Source: Cupriavidus sp. AU9028
Lineage (GTDB): Bacteria; Pseudomonadota; Gammaproteobacteria; Burkholderiales; Burkholderiaceae
Length of the DNA: 64,000 bases
Direction: 5' to 3'
Assembly (NCBI RefSeq): GCF_019795295.1
Contig: NZ_JAIMCG010000022.1
Location: 1 to 64,000 of the forward strand
Shown: piece by piece, positions 5,231-12,994 of the stretch
Position numbering within the stretch: the stretch's first letter is position 1
Layout of the letters: every line of letters begins with the position of its first letter
Translations under genes and position numbers: made by a program
The notes under the pieces: model-generated
What the model was told of the DNA's origin: nothing
Databases searched by the model: none
The model's input: the letters and a program-made list of their open reading frames with translations, nothing else

Positions 5231-8200
5231 TCAGGCGGGGCTGTCGACTGCGGTGCCGGCCGAGGCTCGCAGCGCGGCGCGCGCCTCGGGCGACATCGTT
5301 GCCAGTTGCCGTTGCAGCGCGGCCAGCGTTTCCAGGGCGGCGCGGTTGTCGGCCCGGGCGTCCAGCGCGCAGGCCAGCGCCGCGGCGCTGGGCGCATCGA
5401 ACACCACGGCCGGTGCGATCTCCAGCTTCAGCAGCTTGCGGATGCGGGCGACCAGCTTGATCACCAGCAGCGAATGCCCGCCTGCCTCGAACAGGTCATC
5501 CTGTACGCCCAGTTGCGGCGCCTCCAGCAGCTCGCGCATCTGGTCCAGCAGCAGCGCTTCCAGCGCAGTGGCGGGTTCGCGTCCCGGCGCTGCGTCGTCC
5601 CGGTGCGCGAAGGCTGACTGCATCAACGCCGCACGGTCCACCTTGCCGTTCGGCAGGCGGGGCAGCGACGCGACCGCGAACCACTGCGCCGGAATCATCG
5701 GTTCCGGCAGACGCTCGGCCAGCGCCTGGCGCAGCGCCTTGCGATGGGCGGCGGACAGTGGCACGTTGGACGGATCGTCGGGGACCAGCCATGCGGCAAG
5801 GCAGGGCGGCTCGCCGGGCATGACGAACGGCATGACCAGCGCCTGCCGCACGCCGGGCAATTTCGCCAGCGCATGTTCGATCTCGCCGCATTCGATGCGA
5901 AAGCCCCGGACCTTCAGCTGGCCGTCGGCGCGGCCGAGCAGTTCGATGCCGCCTTGCGGCAGGTAGCGGGCCCGGTCGCCGCTGCGATACAGGCGCTGGC
6001 CGGCACGCGTGGGGTGCGGCAGAAAGGGATCGTCTGGCGTGGCCGGGGTATGGCCCAGGGCGGTGCGGCCCAGATAGCCGTCGCACAACTGGGCGCCGCC
6101 AAGAACCAGTTCGCCGGTCTCTCCCGTTGCCGCGAGGTGGCCGGCCGCGGTGCGCACCTGCGCTTCGCAGTTCGCCAGTACGCGCGTCAGCGGCAGCGGT
6201 TCGCCGGTCAGCGACTGCGCGCTGCCGGCGTCATGAACGAGGATGCCGACGGTCGCCTCTGTCGGTCCATAGTGGTTGCAGACGCGCGCCTGCGGCGCAC
6301 GCTCGCGCAGACGCGACAGTAGCGCCGGCGAGGCCGCTTCGCCGCCGAGCACGATGACGGTACCCGCTGGCAGCGGCAGCGCGCCGCCGTCACCGTCGAT
6401 CAGTGCATCCAGATGGGAAGGCACGATCTTCAGGCACTGCACGCGCTCCCGGGCGAGGAAGGCGGCGAAGCTTGCGGCGTCGCGCATATCGCCTTCGTCC
6501 GCCACGCACAGGCATGCGCCATGCCAGAACGCCCCGAACAGCGTGGTGTTGCCCAGGTCAGCGGCGACGGTCGATGTCAGTGCGAACCGTTGGCAGGTGT
6601 CCAGCTTCAGCGCGTCGCCCGACGCGGCCGCGTAGTTCAGCAATGCACGGTGCGACACGGCAACGCCCTTGGGCGTGCCGGTCGAGCCCGACGTGTACAG
6701 GATGTACGCGGGCTGCGCAGCGTCGAGCGGAGGCAGGGCGCGGCTCGCGCCGGCTTCCGCCCCAGCTGGCGACCCTTTTGACCAACCATCGAGCGCCGCG
6801 ACATCGACATGGCGCGCGGGACCCTGCACGACTGGCAGGTGGGACGCGTCGGTCAGCACCAGCGCGGCCCCGGCGGCGCCAAGGATCGAAGCTCGCCGCG
6901 CGGCCGGCCAGGCCGGGTCCAGCGGCAGATAGGCGCCGCCCGCCCGCATCACCGCGAGCAGGGCCACCACGAGATCGGCGCTGCGGGGCAGCAACAGGCC
7001 GACCGGATCGCCGGGCTTCACGCCGAGCCCGATCAGGCGGGAAGCGAGCGCATCGACGCGGCGATTCAGTTCCCCGTAGTTCCATTGCAGGCCGGGCGCC
7101 GACAGCGCGGGCTCCAGCGGCCGCTCTCGGCCCCACTGCACGAGGCGGTCCGGCAGCAACGGTGTGCCGGCAACCAACGCCGGCACATGCATCGCCTCCG
7201 CACGCGCCGCGTCTGCGACGGTAGCCAGCGGCAGCGCTTCGATCGGCGTGTCCGCGTGCATGCGCAGCGTGCGCAGCAGAGTGGCGTACCCATCCAGCAG
7301 GCAGGCCATTGCATCGGCACGATAGCGCTGGGCGTCGTAGTGCAGCGTCATCTGCACCGCAGCGTCCGCTTCGCTGCTGCGGACCTCCAGCGCCAATTCG
7401 AACCCCGGCACCAGCGAGTCCACTGCCTGCACCCGCCACCGCAGCCCTGCCTGGTCTACAGCAGCTACATCGCTGGCCATCGCGAAGCCCACCCGGCCCG
7501 GCTGACCGGCGGCTGCGTCGGGCGGGCAGTGTTCGCGCCAGTCCAGATGCTGCTCGCATTGCCCGGCCAATTGCGCCAGCCATGCTGCAAACGGCGCGCG
7601 AGGGTCAGGGTCGATCGCCACGGGCAACACGGCTTCATAACGGCCAACGCTACCCGCCAGCGCCTCGAAATCGGCGCGGCAGTCGTGCTGCCAGCCGCCA
7701 CAGAATTCACCGGCCGGATCCATCCGTGCCAGCAGCAGCCACCAGGCGGCTTGCAGCACCACAGGCAGCGGTTGCCCCAGCGTGCCGGCCCAGTCGCGCA
7801 GTGCAGCAGCTTCGCCCGCTTCGAGAGGGACAGACTCGTTGGCAAGCGCAGCGGCGCCCGCAATGCCGCCCCGGCGCCACGGCAAGCGTGGGGCATTCAG
7901 TGTTGCAATGCGCTGCTGCACCTGAGCCCAGTATTCGCCGCCCGATTCCCGATTCTCCTGCGCCAGAGCCGCGGTCCAGTCCAGATAGTCGGCAAACGAA
8001 AGCGCGGAGTCGTCGCCCGGCAAGGCATCGGCGCAGGCTTGCGCCAGTTCACCGACCAACGTCTTCAGGCTGGCGCCATCGAGAGCGAGCGGATGGGCGG
8101 ACAGCGTCAACCGGTGCCGTTCGGGGCCGAGCGAGTCGAGCCTAGCCTGCAGGGAGGGTGCGGCGTCGCCAGGCCGGATGGCGTCGGCCAGCAGCGGCGG

Positions 8201-8449
8201 TACGTCAGCGAATTGCTGGCGCAGGCCGAGCAGGCCATCGACCTGGCCAAACACCAGTCCGCTGGCGGGATGCCGAGCGGCAATGGCGAGCAAGGCCTGA
8301 CGCAGGCGCTCGGGGTCGAGCACCCCGTCGATGGTGGCGGTCAGCGTCACGGGCAGCAATGCGGATGTGCCGCCTTGCTTTGCCAGCGCCAGTTGTTCGC
8401 GGCCCAGCATCTGCGCGTGCAGGGCGAAGTCGGACGTCGGAGCGTTCAT
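5231..8449 (-). CDS. NRPS C*-A(Asp)-T with degenerate N-terminal condensation-like domain
   Basis: The protein has 1072 residues. Residues 1-400 have a condensation fold, but the HHxxxDG motif reads HPLALDG (H119, P120, D124), so the usual catalytic second His is missing. The A domain (about 430-930) has YILYTSGSTGTPKG and specificity residues D-L-T-K-V-G-H-V-G, the known aspartate code. A carrier domain follows with phosphopantetheine serine at about 993 (GGHSLL). The start codon lies 3 bases after the stop of the upstream gene, so the two are probably translationally coupled. That upstream protein ends in a TauD/SyrP-like hydroxylase. A condensation-like domain with a lost catalytic His next to an Asp A domain resembles the 'interface' domains described for beta-hydroxyaspartate siderophores. 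That match is from memory of the family and is inferred. Confidence 0.94.
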   Translation of the reverse strand: MNAPTSDFALHAQMLGREQLALAKQGGTSALLPVTLTATIDGVLDPERLRQALLAIAARHPASGLVFGQVDGLLGLRQQFADVPPLLADAIRPGDAAPSLQARLDSLGPERHRLTLSAHPLALDGASLKTLVGELAQACADALPGDDSALSFADYLDWTAALAQENRESGGEYWAQVQQRIATLNAPRLPWRRGGIAGAAALANESVPLEAGEAAALRDWAGTLGQPLPVVLQAAWWLLLARMDPAGEFCGGWQHDCRADFEALAGSVGRYEAVLPVAIDPDPRAPFAAWLAQLAGQCEQHLDWREHCPPDAAAGQPGRVGFAMASDVAAVDQAGLRWRVQAVDSLVPGFELALEVRSSEADAAVQMTLHYDAQRYRADAMACLLDGYATLLRTLRMHADTPIEALPLATVADAARAEAMHVPALVAGTPLLPDRLVQWGRERPLEPALSAPGLQWNYGELNRRVDALASRLIGLGVKPGDPVGLLLPRSADLVVALLAVMRAGGAYLPLDPAWPAARRASILGAAGAALVLTDASHLPVVQGPARHVDVAALDGWSKGSPAGAEAGASRALPPLDAAQPAYILYTSGSTGTPKGVAVSHRALLNYAAASGDALKLDTCQRFALTSTVAADLGNTTLFGAFWHGACLCVADEGDMRDAASFAAFLARERVQCLKIVPSHLDALIDGDGGALPLPAGTVIVLGGEAASPALLSRLRERAPQARVCNHYGPTEATVGILVHDAGSAQSLTGEPLPLTRVLANCEAQVRTAAGHLAATGETGELVLGGAQLCDGYLGRTALGHTPATPDDPFLPHPTRAGQRLYRSGDRARYLPQGGIELLGRADGQLKVRGFRIECGEIEHALAKLPGVRQALVMPFVMPGEPPCLAAWLVPDDPSNVPLSAAHRKALRQALAERLPEPMIPAQWFAVASLPRLPNGKVDRAALMQSAFAHRDDAAPGREPATALEALLLDQMRELLEAPQLGVQDDLFEAGGHSLLVIKLVARIRKLLKLEIAPAVVFDAPSAAALACALDARADNRAALETLAALQRQLATMSPEARAALRASAGTAVDSPA

Positions 8450-8452
8450 CGT

Positions 8453-12994
<4,542 letters not shown>

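Follow-up and report, generated by a model that had tools for sequence, protein, structure and literature searches.

The window analysed here comprises the opening 64 kb of a contig of 68 kb from Cupriavidus sp. AU9028 and carries two adjacent genes of a nonribosomal peptide synthetase (NRPS) assembly line that is cut at the contig start. Protein 1 joins a fatty acyl-AMP ligase (FAAL), an acyl carrier protein (ACP) domain, a condensation (C) domain and a TauD-type hydroxylase domain, and protein 2 opens with an interface-type, condensation-like domain (C*), bearing the motif HPLALDG, before an adenylation (A) domain and a peptidyl carrier (PCP, or T) domain. The layout itself is already known from related siderophores, but some relatives have lost the partner domain C* and keep the hydroxylase. 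The family thereby offers an experiment set up by nature, in which near-identical hydroxylases occur with and without the interface domain, and such pairs permit a direct test of the role of that domain, which is relevant to moving hydroxylases between synthetases.

For the window, the mechanism proposed by an earlier reading of this DNA (the original prediction) is the best supported. The FAAL would load a fatty acid onto the ACP of protein 1, and the A domain of protein 2 would charge its own carrier with L-aspartate. The TauD domain of protein 1 would hydroxylate this carrier-bound aspartate (Asp-S-PCP) in trans and the intact C domain of protein 1 would join the acyl chain to it, likewise in trans, the order of acylation and hydroxylation being presumed. 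The HPLALDG domain would act as a non-condensing interface that helps the C-TauD end of protein 1 to reach the carrier holding Asp. We consider the roles given to the FAAL, C and TauD domains, together with a non-condensing, interface-type character of C*, very probable, and docking by C* moderately probable.

The condensation-like domain and its hydroxylase

The domain content given in the original prediction for both proteins was borne out. Pfam places AMP-binding, PP-binding, Condensation and TauD domains in protein 1. Protein 2, whose ATG lies 3 nt behind the stop of protein 1 on the minus strand, has matches to Condensation (73.8 bits), AMP-binding and PP-binding. Fatty acyl-AMP ligases are among the best NCBIfam names for the AMP-binding domain of protein 1, all under cut-off; its C domain has an intact HHIAGDG, and the hydroxylase has the predicted HNE...H...R pattern (HNESAH at 9178-9161 and AHARDPYQGPR at 8599-8567). 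Mapped by motif anchors, the specificity positions of the A domain in protein 2 read DLTKVGHVG, which we take to be an aspartate code.

The second histidine of HHxxxDG is missing in all 91 C* domains compared, every one of which keeps the aspartate; HHxxxDG is kept in 87 of 87 C domains preceding TauD, and the second histidine in 245 of 246 other C domains from the same loci (211 by strict pattern and 34 of the remaining 35). Dropped from these counts were eight genome clusters duplicating named loci, five short-matching C domains among the 92 that precede TauD, and C* domains without an A domain in the same open reading frame (ORF; L130, L166). In a C-domain tree subsampled to 35 domains per context, with 25 of the 47 epimerization (E) domains included, all 91 C* form a single clade (support 1.0) outside the active C clades, with C types assigned by context rather than from a curated reference set; the HPLALDG domain thus stands apart from active C domains, as had been predicted. 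An aspartate code was read on the 99 A domains behind C* (duplicates kept), one of which is readable only partly. In one locus (L211, G663) C* is broken into two ORFs and the preceding TauD is intact.

An AlphaFold2 model of C* (pLDDT 91) has a C-domain fold along its length, and its best PDB match by E-value in Foldseek is the teicoplanin X-domain bound to OxyB (4tx3_B). In glycopeptide antibiotic synthetases the X-domain is an inactive C fold by which an oxygenase is brought to a substrate held on a carrier (PMC8949500; PDB 4tx3). However, X-domains recruit P450s and sit between the last T domain and the thioesterase (TE), whereas C* precedes an A domain and adjoins a TauD domain, whose recruitment is putative. 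Despite the first place of 4tx3_B in Foldseek, no X-domain appears among the 50 structural matches listed in VIA-align; identification of C* as an X-domain was therefore dropped and only the analogy retained.

The window hydroxylase keeps the HxE...H motif and the arginine typical of Fe(II)/2-oxoglutarate enzymes: H92, E94, H286 and R295 are invariant across 42 aligned TauD rows, so the metal and 2-oxoglutarate site proposed for checking is in place. Its AlphaFold2 model (pLDDT 92.9) best matches At3g21360, TauD and AtsK in the PDB. By phylogeny it groups with the fused, interface-type enzymes, apart from standalone ones: in a tree of 146 TauD sequences it lies within a clade of 95 (support 0.871) that contains all 92 fused TauDs; of 30 standalone enzymes at the same loci, 28 fall outside. 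No SyrP reference was identified among the loci fetched; PMC12971057, which names hydroxylase classes, places the SyrP clade within its IBH_Asp clade. In four Pseudomonas loci (L140, L159, L162, L175) a standalone second TauD stands directly before a second interface domain, and these four enzymes form a clade of their own (support 0.991). The clade of fused enzymes also takes in the TauDs of two loci of Variovorax boronicumulans (L116, L133).

The layout, which had been thought unusual, proved to be common. The named genome collection encodes 450 TauD relatives, of which the best 80, near relatives of the window domain, were analysed. TauD is fused behind C in 78 of them and is a separate ORF in the same gene order in two (L114, L130); the next protein begins with C* in 79, and the same number have the order C, TauD, then C*-A-T. 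The nearest relatives among these 80, 88-91% identical in TauD, are eight Cupriavidus-titled records and one Ralstonia-titled record. After dereplication, 91 of 92 C-TauD proteins precede a C* protein, and 33 of the 92 are FAAL-T-C-TauD. Searching 299 Burkholderiaceae genomes (family taken from genus, at most six candidates scored per genome) for C* gave 22 best matches at E 2.5e-14 or better, the window included, and 398 genomes of the phylum (at most four candidates per genome) gave six clear matches of at least 195 bits, the next scoring 154; all lie directly behind C-TauD, two of the six are already among the 22, and weaker matches in both searches were taken as ordinary C domains without individual reading. 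No C* was found in the approximately 20 kb fetched of Methylomagnum and Methylosinus clusters that have only a standalone TauD. In the P. lactucae locus L166 the first protein is in pieces, and FAAL, T-C, TauD and C* follow in order. The recurrence of the layout is far above chance, and outside Azospirillaceae the gene order does not vary among the loci examined. As the layout is the rule in these loci and has been published, it is not an oddity.

Condensation-like domains without the HH motif also open modules behind TauD in cyanobacteria, on three plasmids and in the cluster for cyanochelin B. The four C* of the plasmids, which lack the GWQHDCR signature, form a sister clade (support 0.989) to the proteobacterial C* in a tree that leaves out the cyanochelin B domains. 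At the cyanobacterial loci L215-L219 such starts, mostly LPALC.D, occur behind fused and standalone hydroxylases alike.

Azospirillaceae relatives lacking C*

The one exception among the loci above is the complete record of Nitrospirillum viridazoti CBAmc (Azospirillaceae; L173, the same genome as L258), where C-TauD is followed by A(Asp)-T and C* is missing; the best match to C* elsewhere in this genome, at 150.8 bits, is an ordinary C domain. This type of TauD is present in 10 of 82 Azospirillaceae genomes (E 1e-170 or better), this one included. Five of the ten lack the interface domain (L258, L260, L262, L265, L267), with 30-90 nt between TauD and A domain, and five bear it, with 1224-1272 nt; TauD is a separate ORF in two of the interface-less loci (L265, L267). 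None of the ten loci has lost the residues for iron and 2-oxoglutarate; the Asp code is likewise preserved in all, as is HHxxxDG in the C domain that precedes TauD.

A tree of concatenated C, TauD and A domains has one loss of C* inside the pair L258/L259 (100%) and one or more further losses among L260, L262, L265 and L267, whose grouping has a support of only 67, so that three losses are possible. The interface domain thus appears to have been lost at least twice in this family. L258 retains the short A-domain leader that is seen behind C* in L259, and the TauDs of the genomes G1035 and G1096, one with and one without the interface domain, are 91% identical. The ratio of nonsynonymous to synonymous substitution rates (dN/dS) for TauD was 0.13 and 0.14 in close interface-less pairs, compared to 0.08 and 0.16 in two interface-bearing pairs, and 0.10 between L258 and L259; in the distant interface-less pair L258/L260 it was 0.25, with 0.40 for A and 0.41 for C. 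Judged from these sequences, the active site of the interface-less TauD is intact and under purifying selection. The Azospirillaceae loci indicate that C* can be lost without visible decay of the hydroxylase, and these enzymes may still hydroxylate aspartate.

All ten Azospirillaceae TauDs (L258-L267) carry C109A, P112V, A118C, F139L and L189P (window numbering), with or without C*, where 99 other TauDs show conservation of at least 95%. At 129 positions so conserved the ten have 5-9 changes, compared to a mean of 0.8 and a maximum of 6 in the 99, a contrast that is partly expected because most of the 99 were chosen by similarity to the window. Among the ten, no TauD change was found that is common to the interface-less loci and in no interface-bearing one. 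The five ancestral substitutions may have permitted loss of the interface domain. A second, standalone TauD match lies approximately 9 kb upstream on the same contig in all ten genomes, the five interface-bearing ones included.

Interface-less loci outside the family of G1035 were sought in 385 genomes from its class, with no further match at E 1e-100, in a sample that is thin, since none of the Inquilinus or Methylobacterium loci among the named TauD relatives turned up in it; with the best 80 of 450 TauD relatives analysed, further interface-less loci may exist. No description of interface-less modules was found in the literature searched, although Reitz 2019 could contain one.

The part played by C*

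The proposed docking role of C* has to be weighed against these loci: five interface-less relatives with an intact TauD argue against C* being strictly required, and comparison of their sequences suggests that some lineages may be able to do without the interface domain. That it is optional, having been lost at least twice in Azospirillaceae while the C-linked hydroxylase stayed functional, is a serious possibility, if one a little short of even, and would mean that the hydroxylase finds Asp-S-PCP via the neighbouring C domain or directly. It is doubtful, on the other hand, that C* is not needed for hydroxylation at all, with the fused intact C domain already docking the Asp carrier as its acceptor and C* serving as a scaffold for the A domain or as a losable subunit-docking piece. 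The losses, at least two in number, the 30-90 nt left between TauD and A in half of the ten genomes and the low TauD dN/dS of the close interface-less pairs would fit such a role, as would the finding that C* is the least conserved domain among 10 Cupriavidus orthologues (50-56% identity, compared to 88-91% for TauD). However, all but one of the 92 dereplicated C-TauD proteins precede a C*, an HH-less C-like domain also follows in the four cyanobacterial loci examined, TauD is not fused to C in two of the five interface-less loci, and dN/dS is higher in the distant pair L258/L260, for TauD as for A and C. The five changes common to all ten TauDs likewise count against it, as they mean that independence from C* may have arisen in the Azospirillaceae lineage only.

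It is also possible, but unlikely, that the C-linked TauD has ceased to act on the interface-less modules and that the standalone enzyme has taken over. The presence of the upstream TauD match in every one of the ten genomes would allow this, but it is equally present in the interface-bearing five, and the C-linked TauD retains every iron and 2-oxoglutarate residue, with low dN/dS in the close interface-less pairs. For the window itself, we consider it very unlikely that the fused hydroxylase acts on the second Asp module of the cluster rather than the first: orthologous Cupriavidus clusters do have a second Asp module and a single TauD in the stretch fetched, but the C domain before that module reads HHLLLDG in the five clusters read, and C* lies directly behind TauD at the first Asp module only. 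The notion that HPLALDG marks the working condensation domain of its module, leaving the C domain of protein 1 spare, is hardly credible, since the predicted C-domain fold that it could appeal to is set against the loss of the catalytic histidine in all 91 homologues and the intact motif of all 87 upstream C domains.

The siderophore cluster and known systems

Reitz 2019 is said to have defined hydroxylase types in which a TauD-type hydroxylase is paired with a C-like domain that is inactive and precedes an A domain for Asp. We found nothing that sets the window apart from this kind, and the locus is a further, otherwise ordinary member of the interface-associated aspartyl beta-hydroxylase systems. 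Its two genes probably carry out initiation and the first round of elongation in a taiwachelin-like synthetase that makes a lipopeptide siderophore. In the window the assembly line is cut; the modules are present in orthologous Cupriavidus clusters, five of which (G172, G026, G255, G196, G089) have six A-domain codes in a common order, the fourth and sixth being DGEGSGGVT; we take the residues to be Asp, Thr, Asp, hydroxyornithine, Ser and hydroxyornithine. E domains follow residues 2 and 4, and the G172 cluster adjoins a TonB receptor and an FhuF-like protein. In the genome of the window, two short contigs (C25 and C26, each less than 4 kb) carry Asp and Ser modules that match these, and contig C15 has an ornithine N-oxygenase. 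The code DFWNIGMVH of protein 3 is presumably that of Thr. The genes and domains are listed in Table 1.

Table 1. Genes and domains of the synthetase locus in the window
Feature	Coordinates	Strand	Evidence
MbtH-like protein, 73 aa	13866..14087	-	Pfam PF03621, 89 bits
Thioesterase, own gene, 260 aa	13081..13863	-	Pfam PF00975, E 6e-45
Protein 1, FAAL-ACP-C-TauD, 1513 aa	8453..12994	-	ORF, ATG at 12994, Pfam, NCBIfam
Fatty acyl-AMP ligase domain (protein 1)	11324..12952	-	PF00501; NCBIfam NF006624, NF004509, both under cut-off
Acyl carrier domain, GGNS (protein 1)	11015..11224	-	PF00550
Intact condensation domain, HHIAGDG at 10540-10520 (protein 1)	9620..10960	-	PF00668, 307 bits
TauD-type Fe(II)/2-oxoglutarate hydroxylase domain, interface-associated type (protein 1)	8525..9454	-	PF02668, 156 bits
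Protein 2, C*-A(Asp)-T, 1072 aa	5231..8449	-	ORF, Pfam
Interface-type C-like domain C*, HPLALDG at 8095-8075, GWQHDCR at 7696-7676 (protein 2)	7226..8449	-	Motifs, tree, model
Adenylation domain, code DLTKVGHVG (protein 2)	5615..7159	-	Pfam, specificity positions
Peptidyl carrier domain, GGHS (protein 2)	5360..5569	-	PF00550
Protein 3, C-A(code DFWNIGMVH)-T-E-C..., runs off contig start	2..5194	-	Pfam, specificity positions

Among the systems compared, potashchelin of Halomonas sp. MG34, whose PtcB layout was published in 2020 (PMC7100376), has the arrangement of the window, FAAL-ACP-C-TauD followed by C-A(Asp)-PCP, and the C-terminal TauD of PtcB was assigned to the Asp of the adjacent module; it differs in its nine-residue peptide and in having a further hydroxylase, the standalone PtcA. 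Neither 'interface' nor 'inactive' is used in the main text of that paper. Taiwachelin (Cupriavidus taiwanensis; C. basilensis BL-MT-10, PMC11696751) has its genus in common with the window. A TauD domain is known in its NRPS line, as in those of serobactin and cupriachelin (PMC8949500). Lactuchelin of Pseudomonas lactucae (PMC12904278), from a strain other than that of L166, resembles the window in its fatty acid-beta-hydroxyaspartate start and its CAL, PCP, C and TauD domains, but has other residues (Ser, Orn) and a second beta-hydroxyaspartate. Cyanochelin B, which contains two beta-hydroxyaspartates (PMC12628792), is likewise made with an NRPS-fused hydroxylase followed by an HH-less C-like module start; the two modules of its cluster that open in this way directly behind a hydroxylase are CcsL (by accession) and CcsI (by gene order). 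'I (interface)' is a listed bacterial C subtype (PMC10212144).

By analogy with relatives of known product, we would expect a beta-hydroxyaspartate beside the acyl chain in the product of the window cluster, presumably of L-threo configuration. According to PMC12628792, fused hydroxylases produce the S configuration, L-threo, and threo for the fused types is supported by PMC7100376. The product of VarG is erythro according to PMC10999976, so that the papers conflict on the stereochemistry of fused hydroxylases. In a record titled Mycobacterium sp. KBS0706 (L107), the cluster begins just as in Inquilinus limosus, beside which it is placed in the concatenated tree; the label of this record may be wrong, or the record may be contaminated.
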